Shown here: piece by piece, positions 2,156-27,508 of the stretch | Layout: every line of letters begins with the position of its first letter | Position numbering within the stretch: position 1 is the first letter of the stretch | Position numbers and translations under genes: made by a program | IMG/VR virus record: IMGVR_UViG_3300001749_000003 | Location: 1 to 27,929 of that record | Length of the DNA stretch: 27,929 bases | Reading direction: 5' to 3' (one strand) | Source of the DNA: a virus | The notes under the pieces: generated by a model | The model's input: the letters and a program-made list of their open reading frames with translations, nothing else | Databases searched by the model: none | Told to the model about the DNA's origin: nothing

Positions 2156-3045
2156 ATGAAGAGTGATGTAAGTCAATCTGATGTAGTTATTTCCAAACAA
2201 TCTAATATGGCTACACTACAAGATGGCCTTACCAACCTAGCAACTGGCCTTGGTGGTACTCAAGATAAAGCTACCTTCAATCAGTGGAATCACTCTGGAC
2301 GTAATTTTGATCATGTTACCCTATCAGCACGCTATCGTGAATGCTGGTTAAGCCAGAAAGTTTGTAAGATAGTCCCACAAGATATGACTAGGGAGTGGCG
2401 CAAGTTTAACTCTAAGTTAGCTCAAGAGGCCGACAAAGAATTTGAAGTTGATAGCTTGTTCAGGGAAGCTTACAAGTGGGCTAGGTTGTACGGTACTAGT
2501 TTTATTGTACTAGATATTGATGATGGAAGAACTACAGATAAACCTGTAAATTGGAAGAGGTTAAAAGAAGGATGTTTAAGATCCATGCATGTTGTGGATA
2601 GAACTAGGATAGTAACCTTGGGTGAGATTGATCAGAAACCTATGAGTGTTACATTCGGTATGCCTGACCATTACCAATTCGTAAACACTACTACACCTAT
2701 ACATAAAGACAGGCTTATTCGTTTTGAAGGTACGGAATTGCCAATATATGAACGACAAAGAAACTTATGGTATAGTGATAGTGTATTAATACCACTTACT
2801 CAGCAAATGGATAACTTCTATGTTGCTAGTTCTGCTGCAGCTCAGATGGTATCAGAAGCAAACACCGATGTTATTAGAATACCAGATCTACAAACTATTT
2901 TAGAAAGTGATTCTGGTACTGCTGCTATGATAGCCCGCTTTCAAGGATGGAAACAAATTAAGGGTGTTTATGGTGTTTCAATACTAGATCAAGAGGAAGA
3001 GTTTGACCAGAAGAAGATACAACTTTCTGGATTGAAGGACTTGAT
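2156..3045 (+). CDS. Portal protein (DUF1073 family), exon 1
   Basis: First exon of the portal, the dodecameric ring at the capsid vertex through which DNA is packaged and ejected. The ATG follows AAGGAG at a good distance. The segment LSARYRECWLSQKVCKIVPQDMTREW near residue 60 and ARFQGWKQIKGVYGVSILDQEEEFDQKK near residue 265 match the DUF1073 portal pattern. The frame continues unspliced to a stop at 3103, but the last about 19 codons do not fit the family, while the missing family sequence resumes at 3870. I place the exon end after 3045, in phase 2 (codon AT|T), because GACTTGAT pairs with a downstream GTCAAGT as a group I P1 helix. Exon 1 plus exon 2 gives 1320 bases, 439 residues, reading LSGLKDLI-WEYLKIVAASV across the junction. 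Unspliced RNA would give a truncated, non-functional portal. Confidence 0.88.
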
Positions 3046-3869
3046 AAATAACTTGTCAAGTATAAACCCTTTTAAATCAGTGGAACCCCTAATATTAAGT
3101 TAAGGGCAATACTGAGCTATGGTGAATATCTTAGGATTAGTAACCGAAGTGCAACGACTAAATGTAACTCTCAAGGGAGCTTACAAGAGAGGCCAAGTGG
3201 CTTCGTAATTTAGGGGCATACTCAAGGTAGTATGTAAGATATAGTCTAGGCTGCATAGTAATATGTAGAAGAGTGTAAAGATGAATTATATAACAGAGTA
3301 TCGTAGCAAGAAATATTATGTGGGTAGTGTCCACGCAACAAACGATCATGGCCCACTTAAAGTTTTAGGCAGGCTTGATGATCCAAAATGTGACTTATAC
3401 GCAGTAGAATTCTTAAGTACTGGATTTAAAACTAAAGCCAGAACAAGTGGCATTGTAAAAGGCATGGTGAAAGATTATCATGTACCAGTAGTATTCAACA
3501 GGGGATTTCTAGGTACTGGTAAGCACACAACAAAGAAGAATGGAAAGACAACAAGAGAATACAAAGCATGGACAGGAATGTTCTATCGTTGTTACTCTAG
3601 TGACCCTCAACACAAAAACTATGTAAGAAGGGGTATTACTGTTGATCAAAGATGGCACAACTTTCAAATATTTTGTGATGATATAGAAAAGTTGGAAGGC
3701 TATGAAGCTTGGAAGAATGGGTTTAACATGGCACTTGACAAAGATATAAAATTTAATGGTACATATAGCAACACTAGTTGTATGTTTATAACCAAGGCCG
3801 AAAACACAAAAGAGGCCAATAATAGAAGACACTCTAGTAAGAACTAACGAATCTTGCTTAATAACACCG
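3046..3869 (+). ncRNA. Group I intron interrupting the portal gene
   Basis: About 824 bases separate two halves of one portal reading frame. Seen directly: ACTTGAT at the end of exon 1 can pair with GTCAAGT at 3055-3061, putting a U.G pair at the 5' splice site as in P1 of group I introns. GCAACGACTA at 3151-3160 and AAGATATAGTCT at 3236-3247 match the conserved P7 elements of T4-td-like introns, and GACTA/TAGTC pair exactly. The proposed intron ends in G at 3869. The endonuclease gene lies 3' of P7, in a peripheral loop of the P9 region. Splicing joins the frames exactly. The edges could be off by a few bases; the 3' site was chosen to give six residues between DLI and VAA as I recall for this family. 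Confidence 0.85.
3281..3847 (+). CDS. Intron-encoded HNH-type homing endonuclease
   Basis: A 188-residue basic protein encoded wholly inside the portal intron. The C-terminal half contains YKAWTGMFYRCYSS, then RRGITVDQRWHNFQIFCDDIE, then NGTYSNTSCMFITKAENTKEAN, the order seen in HNH-family endonucleases of phage introns (W..M..RCY, GI.V..RW..F..F, Y...NC.W.....N). The usual central His-Asn-His residues are not all obvious: DKDIKFNGTYSNTSC has the Asn-rich part but a clear first His is lacking, so it may be a variant or a weakened enzyme. Such proteins cut intronless alleles near the insertion site and drive intron spread by recombination; the expected target is the portal gene around the exon junction. 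It stops 22 bases before the 3' splice site. A clear ribosome site is not visible (GAAGAGTG lies upstream of the ATG). Confidence 0.8.
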   Translation: MNYITEYRSKKYYVGSVHATNDHGPLKVLGRLDDPKCDLYAVEFLSTGFKTKARTSGIVKGMVKDYHVPVVFNRGFLGTGKHTTKKNGKTTREYKAWTGMFYRCYSSDPQHKNYVRRGITVDQRWHNFQIFCDDIEKLEGYEAWKNGFNMALDKDIKFNGTYSNTSCMFITKAENTKEANNRRHSSKN

Positions 3870-7397: not shown

Positions 7398-7686
7398 AAC
7401 AGTGTGCAACCAATCAATTATATGTGACCAAGCTAACCTAGTTGATGGTGTAGGTCATATCTTAATTGTTGGTGAATCAACACTAGAGATTAGTGACGAG
7501 TTATGGAATGCACAAAAGCATAACTTTGCAGAACAACTTAAGGCTAAAGTACTAACTATTGTTGAAGCACCTAAGTTGACAGAAGAAGAAGAAGCTGAAT
7601 TAGAAGCAGAACAACTTGCCGCTGCAGAAGCACTAGTAGCTAAATCTAAAGCTACAACTAAACCAAAGGCAAGTACTAAAGCATAA
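7381..7686 (+). CDS. Small acidic head-region protein, unknown
   Basis: 101 residues. The first 65 have an alternating beta pattern (VGHILIVGESTLEISDELWNAQ), followed by an acidic helix (LTEEEEAELEAEQLAAAEAL) and a short basic Lys/Thr/Ala tail. It lies between the capsid gene and the DUF4054 connector gene; many related phages have a small unnamed gene at this point. The ATG overlaps the previous gene and is preceded by GAGAGAG. No catalytic motif is visible. The charged tail may mediate assembly contacts, but that is only an inference. Confidence 0.6.
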   Translation: MKIKNETVCNQSIICDQANLVDGVGHILIVGESTLEISDELWNAQKHNFAEQLKAKVLTIVEAPKLTEEEEAELEAEQLAAAEALVAKSKATTKPKASTKA

Positions 7687-11679: not shown

Positions 11680-14600
11680 ATGAGTGACTACGATGATTAT
11701 GAAGGTTTAGAAGTATATGATAGCCCTGATGGTGGAAACATTGATGGGGAACTTGATGAAGCAGCACTATGGCTACAAGGTCAAGGTGGTGTGCTTGATG
11801 AAGATAACGACAGCCCCATATCTAGAAATATACTAGAAGGGGCAATGACTGCTGCAGACTTACAACTAGGTAGAATAAGTCACGTAGAACCAAGGATTCA
11901 AGCTGGTATTAAAGCCCTACTAAGTGGCCAAGATATTAGTGGTGTGTCTGCAGTAGATAAAGCTGCAGCCATACAACAGTTTACTAGTGAGATAGGAATA
12001 GCACCAGAAGTGTTTGCTAGTAGGATCAAGCTAGATCCATCAGTGCAAGTACCAAACTACTCTGGTGATATTAAGACAGTACTTTCCATGTTGCAAAATA
12101 CTTCTGGAGAGTACATGGTTAGGGGCCCAGGAAAAACACTACCTGGGAACTATATAGATAGTGAGAAGAGGTTAGAAGCTAATGATGATCTAACTACTGC
12201 AATTGGTTATATAACTGAGTTATCTGATTTATATATTGATGGCAGAACAAGAGGATCAAGTGTAGAACAAGCAAGAAGGAGTGCTGTTGAGGCTGGATTA
12301 GTATCTAGGCTTAGAGATGGTGTTTTCTATGATGGATCTAAGGACATATTACCACTTCCAAACGAGGTTGGTATATATGGAGAAAACACTAGAGGTGTAA
12401 CTGGTTTAGTTAGGACACAAGGAATATATGGATCAATTCAAGGTACTGCTGATGATAGGCTGTCTTCTGGCAGGTTTGATGAATACTACCAAACAAGTAA
12501 TGCTGCTGGAGAGAAGACTAGGTTTGTCCGTGATAGTAATGGAGGAAAAGTTTTTAAAAATGACGTTTCCAAGGAAGACAGAACTAGAATACTCAAAGCT
12601 ACACCATCTTTAGCCAACTCATTGTTTGCTAAACCTAAGCCAGCAAGAGGTACTAGGTTTACTCAGGAAGAAAGAGATAAACATAGTAGAGATCAAAAGT
12701 ATCTTCTTGATCAAGCTCAATACAAAGCTGAGTTTGCTAGAAAGGTACTAAGGCAACAATTCCCTACAACTAGGGATGAAAGTGCAGGCCAAATAAACAT
12801 GGCTGGCTTTGATAGACCAGTTGGCGAACAAGAAGAAATGCAAAACCTTAGAAATGAGGCTGCAATACTTGGGTTAGATTGGTCTGCAGGAGTTGATCTT
12901 GATAACGTAGGTGGTGTATCAACTAGCACACTATCAACTGAAGATGCCATGAAGGTGGGTATTTTCTCTTCAGGTGGTGTAGGATCTGACAAGTCTGGTG
13001 GGTTTGGCTATACTCAAATGTCAGATGTAGATAGGTTTATTGAAGAAGAGTTAAACCCAGAAGTGGATAATGTTGTGTCATTAAATCCTAAACAGGGAAC
13101 TCCAGAATGGTTGGCTCAACGTAGGGGTAAAATAACAGCATCAGTTATAAAAGGTATATTATTAGAAGGTGGTGTTGATGACATAGCACTACAACTAGCC
13201 AAAGAAAGGTTAGGCACTGCTGAACCATTTGAAGGTAATGCTGATACTAGGGAAGGCAACAAAGGAGAAGATAAAGTTGCTGCATCTTTCCTAGCTGGTG
13301 TTGGTAAGAACTTCACCATGGGAGAGGCACATTTTGTGTCTGGTGATCCAAAGGGATTGAAAGGTTTTGGTGTATCACCAGACGGCTGGCTAATAAACGG
13401 TGAAGGTGAAAGTGAGGGGCTAGCAGAGTTTAAACTTCTAAGTGGCAGTAGTATGAAGACTGCTGTGAAAGACTACACTAACCAGATGCAACTACAAATG
13501 GCTGTGACTGGTGAAAAGCAAGTACACTTTTATGCGCTAGACAAACATTCGGGTGAATACTTACATGAGGTAGTTAAAGAGGATGTTGACCTACAAGACA
13601 AGATAATTTCTGCTGGCAGGCAAGCAATTGATAAAGCCTCAAAGCTAGATCACATAGGAGTTCAAGCTTTGAGCAAAGATATAGAAGCCAAGAAGATGGG
13701 CCCAAGAGCACCATCAAGATCTATGACAAAAGGCCAAAATAAGTCTTTTGAGGTAACTAAGGGTGTTGTGGAGAATGTAACAGCATTTGATCCTGCAGTT
13801 GCTAATGTTGATACAGAGTTAGGTGCCGCATCTAAAACTGTTATGGCACAGAAGCTAGAAAAGTTAGATCAAGCTGAAAGACTTAAGAATGCTGTAGATA
13901 GTGCACAAGATGTTTCTGGTATGAGCAAGATCGAATCTGAACAATCAGAAACTAGACGAATGAAAGCCCAAGCAATATTTAGCAATAATAATAGAAGAGC
14001 TGGGTTTGAAGGTAATCAGCCAGATAGTGAGATGGCTAAGTACTACGAAGAAGCACAGAAGAAAGCTGCAGATGCAACTAATGAAGCTACCAACTCAGTA
14101 TCAGAGTTTGGAAAAGCAACCATGAAAGCTGTCGGTATATTATCAGAGCTTGGTGGTATGGTTATGTCTGGCAATAAGTCTGGTATGGATGAAGTACGTT
14201 TTGCTAATGAAGTTGGAATGGATGTTAGAAATGTCCGTGGTATGCGTGAATCCTTAGAGAAAGGTATGCTTAGTGACACAGGTATTAACAAAGTTATAAG
14301 TAGAGCTGGAAGTCTGGTAAACACTTTTAATAGTGAACTAGGTTTTGCTTCAGAGTACACCAACATACTAGAAGCAAGAGGTGTATCTAACTTAGAATCA
14401 GTACGTAGTATGGATATACCTAGACCTTCTGAATTGAAAGATATGAACCCACAACAAATGGTAAGCATGGTTGCTGGACTAATGGAAGGCAAAACACAAG
14501 AAGAGAAAGTCCAGATTGGTAGAATATTCGGCATGGCAGAGTTGGCTTCAAATACTGCCTCACCAATGGCAATAGATGCTGCTTATGATCTATCTATTAA

Positions 14601-15261
14601 TCAACAGAACTTAGAGGCCACTAGAGCAGGTATTGTAGATGTTGAGCAAGTTAAGAGACAAGCACTAGAACAAACTGGTGAGATAGGTTCAGTAGGCGGA
14701 TCAATTGCGACTGGTTCTGTTGTAGCTGGTGCTATTGCTGGTTCTGCAACTATGGGTTTTGTTGGTGTTAAGGCTGCCCAAATGTTATCAAGAGCTGCAC
14801 CAAGTGCTAATGCTGCTAAGATGGCCAAAAGTATGTCTGTACTTGGTAAATCTACACCACTTGCAATGGCTGCTGGCTTGGCACCTTTGGCAATAAGAGG
14901 ATTATCTGGTGTTAAAGATGATGGTACTGTTGGTGATTCTGCATTAGACATTATGGAGTTTGCTGGCTATGGAGCTGCTTTAGGATCAGTAATTCCTGGG
15001 GCTGGCACTTTGTTAGGTGCTGGTTTTGGAACTGCTTTAGGTATTGGTAATGAGGTAATGGAATACTTTGAAAGTGATCCGTTGCCAGATCCTAACATAG
15101 GTGAAATGAGGCAGACACATGGCCCTAAAGATAAAGAGAAGAATATAGTGAATGTAGAAGTTACTAATGAAATATCAAGAGATCTTATTAGAACTACTAC
15201 AGATGTTAATGGTGATCTAAATGTAGATGAAGAGTCTGGAATAGGAACTGGAGATAGCTGA
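11680..15261 (+). CDS. Tape measure protein with embedded YqaJ-like nuclease domain
   Basis: 1193 residues, located between chaperone and hub genes; this place, the long charged helical stretches, the hydrophobic C-terminal segments (about 1004-1035 and 1094-1125) and the terminal NIVNVEVTNEISRDLIRTTTD block identify a tape measure. It would set a tail of roughly 180 nm at 0.15 nm per residue if all of it counted. Residues about 465-660 form a separate domain of the YqaJ / lambda-exonuclease nuclease family: KQGTPEWLAQRRGKITAS (472 on), REGNKGEDKVA, GFGVSPDGW with D568, AEFK with E583 and K585, and NQMQLQMAVTG with Q602-Q606. The D...ExK plus QxxLQ pattern is intact, so the domain may be active. 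The N-terminal 465 residues match nothing I know. Most Arg codons are AGA/AGG. The tape measure enters the cell with DNA, so a nuclease could be delivered early. ATG follows GGAG. Confidence 0.85.
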   Translation: MSDYDDYEGLEVYDSPDGGNIDGELDEAALWLQGQGGVLDEDNDSPISRNILEGAMTAADLQLGRISHVEPRIQAGIKALLSGQDISGVSAVDKAAAIQQFTSEIGIAPEVFASRIKLDPSVQVPNYSGDIKTVLSMLQNTSGEYMVRGPGKTLPGNYIDSEKRLEANDDLTTAIGYITELSDLYIDGRTRGSSVEQARRSAVEAGLVSRLRDGVFYDGSKDILPLPNEVGIYGENTRGVTGLVRTQGIYGSIQGTADDRLSSGRFDEYYQTSNAAGEKTRFVRDSNGGKVFKNDVSKEDRTRILKATPSLANSLFAKPKPARGTRFTQEERDKHSRDQKYLLDQAQYKAEFARKVLRQQFPTTRDESAGQINMAGFDRPVGEQEEMQNLRNEAAILGLDWSAGVDLDNVGGVSTSTLSTEDAMKVGIFSSGGVGSDKSGGFGYTQMSDVDRFIEEELNPEVDNVVSLNPKQGTPEWLAQRRGKITASVIKGILLEGGVDDIALQLAKERLGTAEPFEGNADTREGNKGEDKVAASFLAGVGKNFTMGEAHFVSGDPKGLKGFGVSPDGWLINGEGESEGLAEFKLLSGSSMKTAVKDYTNQMQLQMAVTGEKQVHFYALDKHSGEYLHEVVKEDVDLQDKIISAGRQAIDKASKLDHIGVQALSKDIEAKKMGPRAPSRSMTKGQNKSFEVTKGVVENVTAFDPAVANVDTELGAASKTVMAQKLEKLDQAERLKNAVDSAQDVSGMSKIESEQSETRRMKAQAIFSNNNRRAGFEGNQPDSEMAKYYEEAQKKAADATNEATNSVSEFGKATMKAVGILSELGGMVMSGNKSGMDEVRFANEVGMDVRNVRGMRESLEKGMLSDTGINKVISRAGSLVNTFNSELGFASEYTNILEARGVSNLESVRSMDIPRPSELKDMNPQQMVSMVAGLMEGKTQEEKVQIGRIFGMAELASNTASPMAIDAAYDLSINQQNLEATRAGIVDVEQVKRQALEQTGEIGSVGGSIATGSVVAGAIAGSATMGFVGVKAAQMLSRAAPSANAAKMAKSMSVLGKSTPLAMAAGLAPLAIRGLSGVKDDGTVGDSALDIMEFAGYGAALGSVIPGAGTLLGAGFGTALGIGNEVMEYFESDPLPDPNIGEMRQTHGPKDKEKNIVNVEVTNEISRDLIRTTTDVNGDLNVDEESGIGTGDS

Positions 15262-23328: not shown

Positions 23329-23360
23329 AAACATCTTAGTTGGATTGTATAGTATATAAA

Positions 23361-23388
23361 TTGATCTAGGTAGTTGTGTAGTTATAAA
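23361..23388 (+). promoter_or_regulatory. Sigma70-like promoter in repeat unit 1
   Basis: TTGATC (23361-23366), 16 bases, TATAAA (23383-23388). Compared with TTGACA-17-TATAAT this has four and five matches. The same arrangement occurs in units 3 and 4, but unit 2 has lost 8 bases of the spacer. Host RNA polymerase could start early transcription of the phage polymerase here. AT-rich DNA makes chance matches common, but the threefold conservation of spacing is suggestive. Confidence 0.45.
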
Positions 23389-23465
23389 ATATTATATATG
23401 TTGGATAGTATATAAATTGATCTAGGTAGTTATAAATATTATATAATATATATATAGTACATAAA

Positions 23466-23493
23466 TTGATCTAGGTAGTTGTGTAGTTATAAA
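23466..23493 (+). promoter_or_regulatory. Sigma70-like promoter in repeat unit 3
   Basis: TTGATC (23466-23471), 16 bases, TATAAA (23488-23493), identical to the site in unit 1. About 200 bases ahead of the polymerase ATG. Confidence 0.42.
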
Positions 23494-23521
23494 ATATTAT
23501 ATATGTTGGATAGTATATAAA

Positions 23522-23549
23522 TTGATCTAAGTAGTTGTGTAGCTATAAA
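23522..23549 (+). promoter_or_regulatory. Sigma70-like promoter in repeat unit 4
   Basis: TTGATC (23522-23527), 16 bases, TATAAA (23544-23549). The closest of the three sites to the polymerase gene, about 140 bases upstream of its ATG, leaving a G-rich leader. Confidence 0.42.
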
Positions 23550-23690
23550 ATATTATATATGTTGGATGTGCGTGGGGTGCTTAGGGATGTTGGTGTGTTA
23601 AGGAGTCTCTTTGCCTTTTCGATTATATGTCGAGTTGGTTTGTGATAACTTGAACACTAATGTAATTAACCTAAACTAAAAGGATCTATC

Positions 23691-25643
23691 ATGCCTAATG
23701 TAATTGCTAACTTAATCAAATCTTCCACAACAACTGAGGTAACAACAATGTCCAACACAACTAAGCAAGAAGCAATCAACTTAAATAACATCAACAAGTC
23801 AGCTTTAGTATCAACAATGGCTGCTGAACTGTTTATTCAAGGCTTAAGTGAAAGAGTAAGTATGATAACTGCTGTTGCATTTATTGGTGCAATTGATTAT
23901 CTTGATGATTATGAAGACTTTTCAGAAGCTTTTATAGAAGGTATGGAAATCACCTCACTAGAGATAGTCGGGCTAAATGAACAGCCAGAGTGTGACATAG
24001 ATGGTGAGTTGGTAGAGAGTATACTTCAAGCTGCCAAGTACCTAGATGGTGAGTCAGTTGGGCCTAGGTTGTATGAGTTATGTGAACTTAGGTCTGAGGC
24101 TTATGAACCAACTACAGGTGAGATAGTTAGAAGGTTTGGCTATTCTAAAGTTAAACACTCTGAGTTGTTTATCGAAGCTATCCATGCTCTTGAAGCAACT
24201 GAGTATACAGTTGATATAGATATATTATCAATTGCATTGCAAGTACAAGGTAAGCTTGGCAAGGATAACGATGAAGAGTCTTATGTTATTAGTGGTTGTC
24301 AAAACATGAATCCTGAGTTGGCTTACAAGTCAGAGTTCAAGGGTGACAGAAGAGGAAGAATGTATCAAGCTGCTTGTCATGGGCCTAATGGTCAATCTTC
24401 TGATAGATCAAGAGCACTTATGAATCTTCAAGGTGTTCCAACTGACTACGATGTTGTTACAGTTAAGAAGCATATCTTAGCTGAGATAGAAGACATGGTA
24501 GCTTCTCCAAAGGATAGTGCCAAGGAGTTAAGAGAGTTGGGTGATGTAGAGTTTATCATCAAGCACCTAGATAGTGATGTAGTTAAGAAGCCTTGGAGTT
24601 TTGTTAAGGCTGCCAAGATCATGCGTGAGTTACAAGCAGGTAACAAGCCCTACATTGGTATGGCTGTAGGTTTAGATGCTAAATGTTCTGGGCCTCAGTT
24701 AGGTGCCTTAATGGTTGGTGATCAACAGATTGCTGCTGCTTGTGGTTTCACCATGACTGAGTTAGATGATGCCTATCATTTGTCTTTGGTAGAACTAGCT
24801 AGGGCTGGCTTTACTAACATAACCAGAAATGGTATCAAGAAGGCATACATGGGTGTGTTCTATGGTCAAGGTTGGGCTGCATTTACTGACCTTGAGGAGA
24901 TAGGTTCTGAGCTAGCTAACTCACTTTATGGTGAGGGAATGCCAGCTAATGATGATACAGCTAAGATGTTCCACAAAGCCTTAGTTGCATCATTTGGTCA
25001 GAAGATGATAGCTGTACGTAACTTGTTTAAGTCATACGCCAAAACTACTAAAGGTCGCACTTTACATAGTATGCCTGATGGGTTTGAAGTAGCCATGAAC
25101 TACAAAGTCAAGACTAACATCTTGGGTGAGATCATGGAGTATGACACAGAACAATACGATGTAAGACTACGTAATAATGCTGAGTCTTATAAGTTTATCA
25201 ACTTCCAACTTAAGACCTTGGATGTGCATGAGGGTGACTTTGCTAGAAATGGGTTTGTTAATATGATCCAAGCTACAGATGCACTTATAGCTAGGTTGAT
25301 AGTAGTTCACCTTAAGAGATTAGGTGCTAAGCATATCATATCAGTACATGACTGCTTTCGAGTTAATGTTACTGAGATGCACTTGCTTGAAGAAGCTATC
25401 AAGTTATCATACATGGATCTATTTGGATCTGAGTACAATAACTCAACTAGTGACTTACCACTAGGAACTGACATACTTGGTTTGTACTTTAAAGGAGCCA
25501 ACAAGCAGTTAATAGAAGGAGAAGAAGAAGTTATGGTTAGTCAGTTCTTCAGCTCTGGTAAAAGAAGACTACGTAAGATCAATAGTGTAAAAGTTGTAGA
25601 TCTTATTAGTAGCCTAGGTGATACTTATTACTTCGCTAAGTAG
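23691..25643 (+). CDS. T7-like single-subunit DNA-directed RNA polymerase
   Basis: 650 residues. All core motifs of the T7 RNA polymerase family are present: FKGDRRGRMYQ with D219-R223 (DxxGR motif), GLDAKCSGPQ with catalytic D329 (motif A), RNGIKKAYMGVFYG with R379, K383, Y391 and G392 at exactly the T7 spacing (R627, K631, Y639, G640; motif B), and SVHDCFRV with H553 and catalytic D554 (motif C). About 170 residues separate motifs B and C, enough for a promoter-specificity loop. It is shorter than T7 polymerase (883 residues): the part before DxxGR is about 200 residues shorter, so the N-terminal promoter-melting domain is reduced or different. ATG follows AAAAGGAT. Upstream repeats carry sigma70-like sites; downstream lie five candidate promoters for the enzyme itself. 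The C terminus ends YYFAK, loosely like the aromatic T7 foot. Such enzymes are best known from podoviruses. Confidence 0.9.
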   Translation: MPNVIANLIKSSTTTEVTTMSNTTKQEAINLNNINKSALVSTMAAELFIQGLSERVSMITAVAFIGAIDYLDDYEDFSEAFIEGMEITSLEIVGLNEQPECDIDGELVESILQAAKYLDGESVGPRLYELCELRSEAYEPTTGEIVRRFGYSKVKHSELFIEAIHALEATEYTVDIDILSIALQVQGKLGKDNDEESYVISGCQNMNPELAYKSEFKGDRRGRMYQAACHGPNGQSSDRSRALMNLQGVPTDYDVVTVKKHILAEIEDMVASPKDSAKELRELGDVEFIIKHLDSDVVKKPWSFVKAAKIMRELQAGNKPYIGMAVGLDAKCSGPQLGALMVGDQQIAAACGFTMTELDDAYHLSLVELARAGFTNITRNGIKKAYMGVFYGQGWAAFTDLEEIGSELANSLYGEGMPANDDTAKMFHKALVASFGQKMIAVRNLFKSYAKTTKGRTLHSMPDGFEVAMNYKVKTNILGEIMEYDTEQYDVRLRNNAESYKFINFQLKTLDVHEGDFARNGFVNMIQATDALIARLIVVHLKRLGAKHIISVHDCFRVNVTEMHLLEEAIKLSYMDLFGSEYNNSTSDLPLGTDILGLYFKGANKQLIEGEEEVMVSQFFSSGKRRLRKINSVKVVDLISSLGDTYYFAK

Positions 25644-25658
25644 TAGTTAGTATCTAGT

Positions 25659-25684
25659 TAGCCAGCTATTAAGTTAGCTGGCTA
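25659..25684 (+). terminator. Hairpin after the RNA polymerase gene
   Basis: TAGCCAGCT (25659-25667) and AGCTGGCTA (25676-25684) form a perfect 9-bp stem with an 8-base loop ATTAAGTT, sixteen bases after the stop codon. It is followed by CTATCCCTCTT, which has only short T runs, so termination may be partial. It overlaps a TATCTAGTTAG element like those in the repeat block further on. Confidence 0.65.
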
Positions 25685-25847
25685 CTATCCCTCTTAAGTA
25701 TATAAAGCCACAAGTCTGTAGTGTTCCAGAGACTTAAGGAACTAGTAAGAAGAGTAAGTGGTGACTATAACTAAGATCAAGACCACAACAGGTTCAAGAG
25801 CATAATCGTTCGTACCTCACTTCAGTTCAAAAGATAAGATCAAGACC

Positions 25848-25870
25848 AATATAGATCCTTTCTAGGTAGA
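25848..25870 (+). promoter_or_regulatory. Candidate phage RNA polymerase promoter P1
   Basis: Core TATAGATCCTTTCTAGGTAG; start expected at the first G of CTAGG (25865). Ends like T7-class promoters (…CTATAGGGAGA). First of five copies, in the first unit of a 63-bp duplication. Confidence 0.6.
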
Positions 25871-25910
25871 GTATGTAGAAATACATAACACCAAAGATAA
25901 GATCAAGACC

Positions 25911-25933
25911 AATATAGATCCTTTCTAGGCAGA
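25911..25933 (+). promoter_or_regulatory. Candidate phage RNA polymerase promoter P2
   Basis: Core TATAGATCCTTTCTAGGCAG, start expected at 25928. Differs from P1 by one base within the core; it lies in the second unit of the duplication. Confidence 0.6.
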
Positions 25934-25993
25934 CTATGTAGAAATGCATAATGCCAGAGAAGGGTCAGAGGTATAGACCACAAAGGTCAAATC

Positions 25994-26016
25994 CATTTAG
26001 ATCTTCTCTAGGGAGA
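25994..26016 (+). promoter_or_regulatory. Candidate phage RNA polymerase promoter P3
   Basis: Core TTTAGATCTTCTCTAGGGAG, start expected at 26011. The end CTAGGGAGA is the closest of the set to the T7/K11 start CTATAGGGAGA, and ATTTAG at its 5' end recalls SP6 and K11 promoters. The surrounding sequence is not part of the 63-bp duplication, so the motif is conserved independently. Confidence 0.62.
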
Positions 26017-26071
26017 TTAGTTAAGGTAATAGACAAATAGCAGCCACTTGATTGTGAGCTTGATGGTTATT

Positions 26072-26094
26072 ACTTTGACTTCATTCTAGGGAGG
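26072..26094 (+). promoter_or_regulatory. Candidate phage RNA polymerase promoter P4
   Basis: Core TTTGACTTCATTCTAGGGAG, start expected at 26089. It keeps TTCTAGGGAG but departs from TAGATCC upstream, so it is the weakest copy. Like P3 it is followed by TAGTTAAG. Confidence 0.45.
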
Positions 26095-26159
26095 GTAGTT
26101 AAGATCTAGGTCTGTTGGAATATTAGTGTATAGACCTAAGGTAGTTAGTTACAAGTTAG

Positions 26160-26203
26160 TATCTAGTTAGTATCTAGTTAGTATCTAGTTAGTATCTAGT
26201 TAA
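26160..26203. repeat. Four 11-bp TATCTAGTTAG repeats
   Basis: Three exact copies (26160-26170, 26171-26181, 26182-26192) and a fourth ending TTAA (26193-26203). The same 11-mer also occurs at 25651-25661, next to the polymerase stop. The 11-bp period places each copy on about the same helix face. Confidence 0.9.
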
Positions 26204-26343
26204 TAAGTTATGCCAGACAGGAATCGCTAGTGTAGGATTAGAGCTTGGCTACTTACTTAATAGTATCAATAGGTTATGATAGTCTTCGACAGTATCTAGA
26301 TAGTGGCTAGATAGTGGCTGGCTAATAACTTGACGTGGGAGAG

Positions 26344-26492
26344 GGCTAGTTAGTGTTGGGTTAGGCTAGTTAGTGGCTAGTTAGTGTTGGGTTAGTGGCT
26401 AGTTAGTGGCTAGTTAGTGACTAGTTAGAGTTGGATTAGGCTAGTTAGTGGGCGATGGGTCTAGTTAGTGTTGAGGTATGGGCTAGTTAGTA
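26344..26492. repeat. Helically phased GGCTAGTTAGTG array
   Basis: Exact copies start at 26344, 26364, 26375, 26397, 26408 and 26439; one- or two-base variants start at 26419, 26459 and 26481. Distances are 20, 11, 22, 11, 11, 20, 20 and 22, all close to whole helical turns (137 bp over 13 turns, 10.5 bp each). The array looks like a set of protein-binding sites on one face of DNA. Confidence 0.85.
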
Positions 26493-26511
26493 GACTGGAG
26501 GGTGTAGGTTG

Positions 26512-26638
26512 TTAGGCACCCGAGACACTTACTTAGTCAATATCAAGTACTTACTTAGTCAATATCAAGTACTTACTTAGTCAATATCAAGTACTTACTT
26601 AGTCAATATCAAGTACTTACTTAGGCACCCGAGACACT
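26512..26638. repeat. Four 22-bp iterons between 18-bp direct repeats
   Basis: TTAGGCACCCGAGACACT occurs exactly at 26512-26529 and 26621-26638. Between them are TACTTAG and four identical 22-bp units (26537-26558, 26559-26580, 26581-26602, 26603-26624), each containing TCAATATC, the palindrome AAGTACTT and ACTTAG. The unit length equals two helical turns, as in iterons of replication origins. No spacers are present, so it is not CRISPR. A variant (TACTTACTTAATAGTATCAATA) lies near 26250. Confidence 0.9.
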
Positions 26639-26961
26639 AGTTACGCACCTATTAAGCTATCATAGTATATAGATCTACCTAGCTTTAATTAGCAACTATT
26701 TAGCTTTAAGTAGTCTTATCAGTAACTTAGTAAGTTATTAGTAAGCTACGAGTTAGTCCTAAGTTAGACTGAGTTAGATATTTAGACTTAGTAGTATATT
26801 AGTAAGTTGGCTTTAAGCTAGATGCCAGTAATCATAGTTATACCTAGTTAGACCTAGTTAGAGATCTTTCTTTCTGGTCTAATAGTTATAGAGCTAAGTG
26901 TTATCAGCTAATAATTGTTAGTTGATACTAGTTAGCTCTAAGTAGCACTGAGTAGAAAACC

Positions 26962-26984
26962 GTTATAGATCCTTTCTAGGCACA
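26962..26984 (+). promoter_or_regulatory. Candidate phage RNA polymerase promoter P5
   Basis: Core TATAGATCCTTTCTAGGCAC, start expected at 26979, about 110 bases before the next gene (27092). Identical to P1/P2 over 16 bases in unrelated surroundings almost 900 bases away, which argues for a functional site and places it as the promoter of the downstream small genes. Confidence 0.65.
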
Positions 26985-27091
26985 ATAGGTTAGGGATGGA
27001 TCACCTAAGAAACAAACGATCCACTTTAAATCATTTAACAATTTTAATAACTGGTAAGCAGAAGCTGCCATAACTTATAGAGAGAAATACT

Positions 27092-27508
27092 ATGTCAATC
27101 TTAAACAAACTAAGCACACTTACTAAAGTTAATTCTGAGACAGCACCCAAGCGTGTTGCGATGACTGAAACACAAGTTAAGCAGTGCAAAGCAGCAATCA
27201 CACGAGACAATCGTGGTTATAATGTACATCCTAATAAGTTCGATATTGCTGTACCATACCGAGTTGCTGTAAATTTTAACAACGAGTGGTTTGGCTATGG
27301 TAACTTTACCAGTGCTGATGTTGCTGCTGCTGTAGGTGCTATCGTATCGTCTGCTTACTTTGGTGATGATGCTGTTATTGGATCTTTTGACAGTGAAGTA
27401 GTAGAAGGCCATGAGGAATTCCAAAGCTGGTTAGCAAACTCAGAAAATGCTGATGTTATTGCTAAAGCTAACCAAGAAAACACAGTAGATGATAGTGCTC
27501 CGTTCTAA
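27092..27508 (+). CDS. Unknown small protein with SSB-like acidic tail
   Basis: 138 residues. Not recognised. A basic, Thr/Lys-rich N terminus (MSILNKLSTLTKVNSETAPKR) is followed by a compact region with IAVPYRVAVNFNNEWFGYGNF, SADVAAAVGAIVSSAYFGDDAVIGSF and an acidic C-terminal part ending TVDDSAPF. The last residues resemble the DDDIPF tip of single-stranded DNA-binding proteins, which recruits partner enzymes; the body does not look like a standard OB fold, so this may be only a resemblance. The gene lies about 110 bases after candidate promoter P5, has AGAGAG before the ATG and a strong terminator behind it, so it is probably a highly transcribed single gene. CGT/CGA arginine codons support good expression. 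Confidence 0.68.
   Translation: MSILNKLSTLTKVNSETAPKRVAMTETQVKQCKAAITRDNRGYNVHPNKFDIAVPYRVAVNFNNEWFGYGNFTSADVAAAVGAIVSSAYFGDDAVIGSFDSEVVEGHEEFQSWLANSENADVIAKANQENTVDDSAPF

Follow-up and report, generated by a model that had tools for sequence, protein, structure and literature searches.

Predicted T7-class promoters behind a single-subunit RNA polymerase gene in a virus and its uncultured relatives

Genome context and features of the locus

The window analysed here is a stretch of 27,929 nucleotides that forms the first half of a 56,534-bp IMG/VR record (IMGVR_UViG_3300001749_000003). A stretch of 2,688 bp recurs, with 6 mismatches, at both ends of this record, which may be an assembly overlap or a long terminal repeat such as that of Chaseviridae (about 3 kb); the unique length is therefore about 53.8 kb. 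Almost all genes lie on one strand. Terminase, portal, capsid, tail sheath and baseplate genes are followed by a gene for an RNA polymerase (RNAP1), a noncoding gap and small early genes, and these by replication and nucleotide genes, a second RNA polymerase gene (RNAP2) and terminase genes. Gene names beyond those from family scans were assigned by eye from translations and position, the replication genes by eye only. The features discussed below are the following, with scores and ranks taken from a matrix built on relatives.

23345..23567, + strand: tandem 56-nt repeats upstream of RNAP1, located with a tandem repeat finder
23691..25643, + strand: RNAP1, a 650-aa single-subunit RNA polymerase of Chaseviridae type
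25644..27091, + strand: noncoding gap of 1,448 nt without an ORF of at least 60 aa; contains all five sites
25707..25735, + strand: single-copy block CACAAGTCTGTAGTGTTCCAGAGACTTAA (around AAGTCTGTAGCGTTCCGG), from a de novo motif search
25848..25874, + strand: candidate promoter P1, covering -17 to +10 with +1 at G 25865; score 22.8, rank 1
25911..25937, + strand: candidate promoter P2, +1 at G 25928, 63-nt tandem copy of P1; score 18.0, rank 3
25994..26020, + strand: candidate promoter P3, +1 at G 26011, terminating in CTAGGGAGA; score 17.3, rank 4
26072..26098, + strand: candidate promoter P4, +1 at G 26089, core of the 15-mer only; score 22.0, rank 2
26142..26624, + strand: 11-nt and 22-nt direct repeat arrays between P4 and P5
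26962..26988, + strand: candidate promoter P5, +1 at G 26979; score 14.8, rank 6
27092..27508, + strand: first ORF downstream of P5, 138 aa, C-terminal DDSAPF
47897-49741 of the record (L006:4397-6241): RNAP2, a T7-like single-subunit RNA polymerase of 614 aa, directly before the terminase genes

Comparison with Y2 and PP101 revealed that the gene order is that of Chaseviridae. The layout of this family is found throughout: a genome of 52-56 kb, one coding strand, an early RNAP with a gap behind it, replication genes, terminase and a contractile tail. Together with RNAP identities of 20-27%, the gene order suggests that the window belongs to a sister lineage of Chaseviridae, or one otherwise related to them. 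Elsewhere in the window, a group I intron with an adjoining ORF lies in the portal gene region (3015-3847), and an ORF similar to the adjoining one interrupts the large terminase gene (L006:7559-8467). A 1193-aa protein of the tail region (11680-15261) carries a YqaJ-like recombinase domain (Pfam 1e-08).

Five sites in the gap behind RNAP1

The original prediction described five candidate promoters for the phage RNA polymerase on the + strand. All five exist between 25848 and 26984, are intergenic, and have a G at exactly the start positions that it had named. Their consensus is approximately AAT(G/A)A-T--T-TCTA, continued from +1 by GGTAGAGTA. The 15-mer TAGATCCTTTCTAGG occurs exactly at 25852, 25915 and 26966 and with two mismatches at 25998, and no further match with up to two mismatches was found on either strand of the whole 56.5-kb record; P4 shares only the core TTCTAGGGAG with the 15-mer and differs from it at five positions. 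As described, the sites lie behind the polymerase gene, P1 beginning 222 nt past the RNAP1 stop codon, and P5 precedes the next gene, 113 nt ahead of the ORF at 27092.

P1 and P2 do belong to a duplication, a 63-nt tandem repeat. The accompanying statement that P3, P4 and P5 lie in unrelated surroundings is right only in part, since P3 and P4 have 17 of 19 nt in common from TCTAGGGAG to TTAAG, and P5 is 83% identical to P2 over 35 nt. Owing to this duplication and these likenesses, the sites do not represent five independent events in the window genome, and the independence of the motif has to be drawn from other genomes. A search of the complete genome for copies ahead of operons, proposed along with the prediction, went against it: all copies fall into the single gap and none stands in front of another operon. 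The dispersal ahead of many operons that is typical of T7-class promoters is thus absent from the window genome, and the late genes would need either long read-through or another polymerase.

Conservation of the motif in relatives

About 15 uncultured relatives were identified, with RNAP1 sequences 36-60% identical to that of the window. When the RNAP1 query alignment was built without Chaseviridae it detected only one relative, and with Chaseviridae it detected 48 loci, about 15 of them from the window's clade; an RNAP1 search of genome contigs returned no relative. The exact pattern GATCCTTTCTAGGNAGA had no match in all viral contigs because its upstream part is lineage-specific. Behind the RNAP gene, relatives with enough sequence there carry one to six copies of the motif on the coding strand: six in G005 (spaced by 36-55 nt), five in G014, three or four in G001, G007, G010 and G016, two each in G006, G008, G009 and G013, and one each in G011 and G012. 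Additional intergenic copies stand ahead of other genes in G012 (at 47311) and G016 (at 7526), 5 to 7 kb downstream of RNAP1.

The agreement between genomes was evaluated with matrix scans, all run without a core filter in the scanned genome. The first relative, L007 (RNAP1 53% identical), has four sites of the same kind behind its RNAP. A matrix of the five window sites ranks all four at the top of this 12.4-kb locus, and the L007 matrix places P1 and P2 first in the 53.8 kb of the window genome. In G001, G005, G006, G007, G008, G009 and G010, whose RNAP1 is 45-53% identical, the window-only matrix scores highest at a + strand position within the gap behind RNAP1. This is not so in the more distant relatives, where the core reads TATAGG, as in T7, in place of TCTAGG. 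Conversely, a matrix from 12 relatives, with the window phage excluded, was scanned over both strands of the whole 53.8-kb window genome and recovered P1, P4, P2, P3 and P5 at the ranks given above, the best score per shuffled genome averaging 15.0 and reaching at most 18.7. A de novo search of the gaps also recovers the motif, with a summed score of 308 versus 237 in shuffled sequence; shuffled sequence is the valid control here, as reversing the sequence only mirrors the search and is uninformative. The five sites are therefore more than chance, and the motif itself is conserved, as originally proposed.

Anatomy of the motif

Across 40 sites from 13 genomes, T occurs at -4 with a frequency of 0.98, C or A at -3, T (1.00) at -2, A (1.00) at -1 and GG at +1/+2, frequencies that are inflated in the core columns as the sites were picked by their core. 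The most conserved positions are -4 to +2 together with +4, +5, +8 and +9, where A+4, G+5, T+8 and A+9 are strongly preferred. The segment from -15 to -5 varies by lineage, T-13 and G/A-12 being commonest, and the upstream part (-17 to -5) is common to the copies within a genome, a T7-class trait. In the T7 promoter, positions -17 to -5 serve binding and positions -4 to +6 serve initiation (PMC4496689), and judged by its sequence the motif has this same division. The T7-class layout, the same position and coding strand in a dozen relatives and, in some of these, the copies in front of other genes argue strongly that the five sites are promoters, which we regard as very probable. The best reading of the sequences is that they serve a single-subunit phage RNAP.

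The two RNA polymerases

RNAP1 matches phrog_414 (5.8e-29). In a 38-sequence alignment D219, R221, R223, D329, R379, K383, Y391, H553 and D554 are invariant; RNAP1 retains all catalytic residues, and its specificity-loop region is present. An AlphaFold2 model (pLDDT 87.8, pTM 0.86) has T7 RNAP as its best structural match (Z 25-32), including the T7 promoter complex 1cez (Z 25.5 over 493 residues, model residues 19-649 aligned). Mitochondrial RNAPs, N4 vRNAP (21) and N4 RNAPII (17.5, one subunit) follow as lower matches, and the model thus predicts a fold like that of T7 RNAP. Ahead of the DxxGR motif RNAP1 has about 219 residues, some 200 fewer than the roughly 420 of T7 RNAP. In T7 RNAP this part carries upstream recognition elements, and its shortness in RNAP1 counts against RNAP1 as the reader of the sites.

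The original prediction spoke of the phage RNA polymerase and of a polymerase-promoter pair. The T7-class promoter reading stands, but the polymerase is not unique, as RNAP2 is also encoded. RNAP2 is 28% identical to Autographivirus-type RNAPs. Every near-complete genome of the clade (G009, G010, G012, G013 and G016) encodes it, as do the fragments G011 and G015 and two genomes of Chaseviridae-like type (G017 and G018); in Y2 it was not found. A search for RNAP2 promoters in the complete genomes found no promoter-like repeated family outside the gap. A T7-like GGGAGAG near RNAP2 was considered as a promoter and rejected, since in four relatives it belongs to a conserved RNA hairpin. This long hairpin is located in the spacer that separates RNAP2 from the small terminase gene of G009, G010, G015 and G016 (L079, L081, L077 and L078); its stem sequences differ yet stay paired, and its apical GUUACUACCCCGC...AGGGAGAG is conserved. 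The loci scanned gave no Rfam match for it, and the pattern GUUACUACCCCGC...AGGGAGAG was not found in the window genome.

Which polymerase reads the sites

Promoter similarity between genomes follows RNAP1 identity (rho 0.74, Mantel p 0.0002, 12 genomes). Eight genomes contain both polymerases, and among them the divergence of RNAP1 and RNAP2 is discordant (rho -0.60). In this comparison promoter similarity correlates with RNAP1 at 0.50, with RNAP2 at -0.03 and with five other genes at -0.13 to 0.20. The partial correlation of promoter with RNAP1 is 0.60 (permutation p 0.003); RNAP2, too, keeps a positive value when RNAP1 is controlled for (0.38, p 0.02).

These values bear on the strongest rival explanation, in which the sites are promoters for RNAP2, or for both polymerases, and RNAP1 uses something else. 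It would suit the greater closeness of RNAP2 to Autographivirus RNAPs, its presence in all near-complete clade genomes and the lack of such a cluster in the same gap of Chaseviridae without RNAP2. However, promoter form tracks RNAP1 rather than RNAP2, and G017, which encodes an RNAP2 40% identical to the window's, lacks such a cluster behind its RNAP1 and shows no repeated T7-like site in other places. We therefore consider this alternative unlikely and RNAP1 the probable reader of P1 to P5, because the promoter form co-varies with RNAP1 and because RNAP2 in G017 occurs without the cluster. As the sites adjoin RNAP1, physical linkage or shared descent may alone produce the correlation.

With RNAP1 as the reader, the host RNA polymerase would make RNAP1 first. 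RNAP1 would then bind the T7-class sites in the gap, its specificity loop contacting the lineage-specific bases from -15 to -5, melt TCTA at -4 to -1 and begin RNA at the GG of +1 and +2. The transcripts would drive the same-strand block of early and replication genes downstream. In T7 the RNAP gene likewise lies directly 5' of tandem promoters for its own product, an arrangement that the proposed model mirrors. A wider scheme, to which we give somewhat less than even chances, is a cascade of two polymerases in this myovirus lineage, in which RNAP1 acts on the T7-class sites behind its own gene, the T7-type RNAP2 acts on a separate late-gene set, and the TATAGG/TCTAGG specificity has changed together with RNAP1.

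Alternative functions of the sites

The sites could also be elements of a replication origin or of packaging, such as iterons near a genome terminus. They are limited to one repeat-rich gap, the matching gap of Chaseviridae holds other multi-copy elements, and in three Chaseviridae (Myduc, 4HA13 and Mangalitsa) terminal repeats predicted by PhageTerm end inside the gap behind the RNAP. Yet the strict TxTAGG core, the lineage-specific upstream part and the T7-class start suit promoters better than iterons; the spacing is irregular (63, 83, 78 and 890 nt), and G012 and G016 have intergenic copies elsewhere. We judge this explanation to be quite improbable; promoters with an additional role in priming replication, as T7 has them, would be compatible with the promoter reading. 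Operators for a regulatory protein, suggested by the partly palindromic form of some L007 copies (TACTCT-CTAGGT-AGAGTA), are highly implausible, as conservation is asymmetric and a palindromic operator was rejected for want of the dyad in the window copies and in the six of G005.

Comparison with known systems

The promoters of T7, T3 and K11 (Autographiviridae) resemble the sites in their extent of about -17 to +6, in T at -4, TA at -2/-1 and GG at +1/+2, in the GGGAGA start (here P3) and in tandem copies directly behind the RNAP gene. They differ in that the window's clade has C instead of A at -3 (A in distant members), that conservation here extends to +10 (GGTAGAGTAG), and that the window genome has few copies, all in one gap, together with a second RNAP.

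Chaseviridae (phiEcoM-GJ1, PP101, Y2 and 4HA13) share the gene order, the one-strand genome of 52-56 kb and an RNAP followed by a noncoding gap, which in annotated members has few or no annotated genes and mostly measures 1.0-1.3 kb. On the other hand, RNAP1 is only 20-27% identical to theirs, their gap has no TxTAGG cluster, and no RNAP2 was found in Y2. According to ICTV (2022), promoters of the Chaseviridae single-subunit RNAP "have not yet been identified" (PMC12842549). The PP101 authors hypothesised eight consensus promoters using PHIRE, the sequence being given only in a figure (PMC6989608), and a review mentions promoters of similar sequence across the genome (PMC8472413). The gap of Cleopatravirinae (L008, L009, L012-L015 and L019) contains several copies of GCATGTnAATATTGTGACAATATT, which in Y2 and PP101 is limited to the gap except for the left end of PP101; these repeats are candidate promoters or iterons of Chaseviridae.

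N4 RNAPII is similar in size to RNAP1 (673 versus 650 aa) and is matched by the RNAP1 family profile (6.2e-6). It is a heterodimer that depends on gp1 and gp2, and its promoter is minimal and AT-rich, spanning -7 to +2 (PMC4496689), whereas RNAP1 is one chain and the sites described here are longer and GG-initiating. N4 also has two single-subunit RNAPs, of other kinds (PMC4496689). A literature search for phages that encode two single-subunit RNAPs found the phrase in no paper, a result that speaks only weakly for absence.

The comparison provides exact candidate promoters with predicted starts for what appears to be a sister lineage of Chaseviridae, and shows that this lineage encodes two unlike single-subunit RNAPs. 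It also gives roughly 12 putative natural pairs of a polymerase and a promoter that diverge together, from which new orthogonal RNAP-promoter pairs might be obtained.

Other elements of the gap and its flanks

Upstream of RNAP1, three of the 56-nt repeats contain a sigma70-like TTGATC-18-TAAAAT, and every repeat includes TCTAGG or TCTAAG. These repeats are candidate host-driven early promoters, a weak assignment as total matches in the sigma70-like promoter scan do not exceed those in shuffles. Within the gap, the CACAAGTCTGTAGTGTTCCAGAGACTTAA block is kept about 40-110 nt past the RNAP1 stop in most relatives, and the repeat arrays between P4 and P5 could be an origin-like region. A 26-nt inverted repeat without a loop (26889-26940, 81% complementary) lies just upstream of P5, and segments around it have more stable folds than shuffled sequence. 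The ORF at 27092..27508 had no family match in family scans; its DDSAPF end resembles the acidic tip of single-strand DNA-binding proteins.
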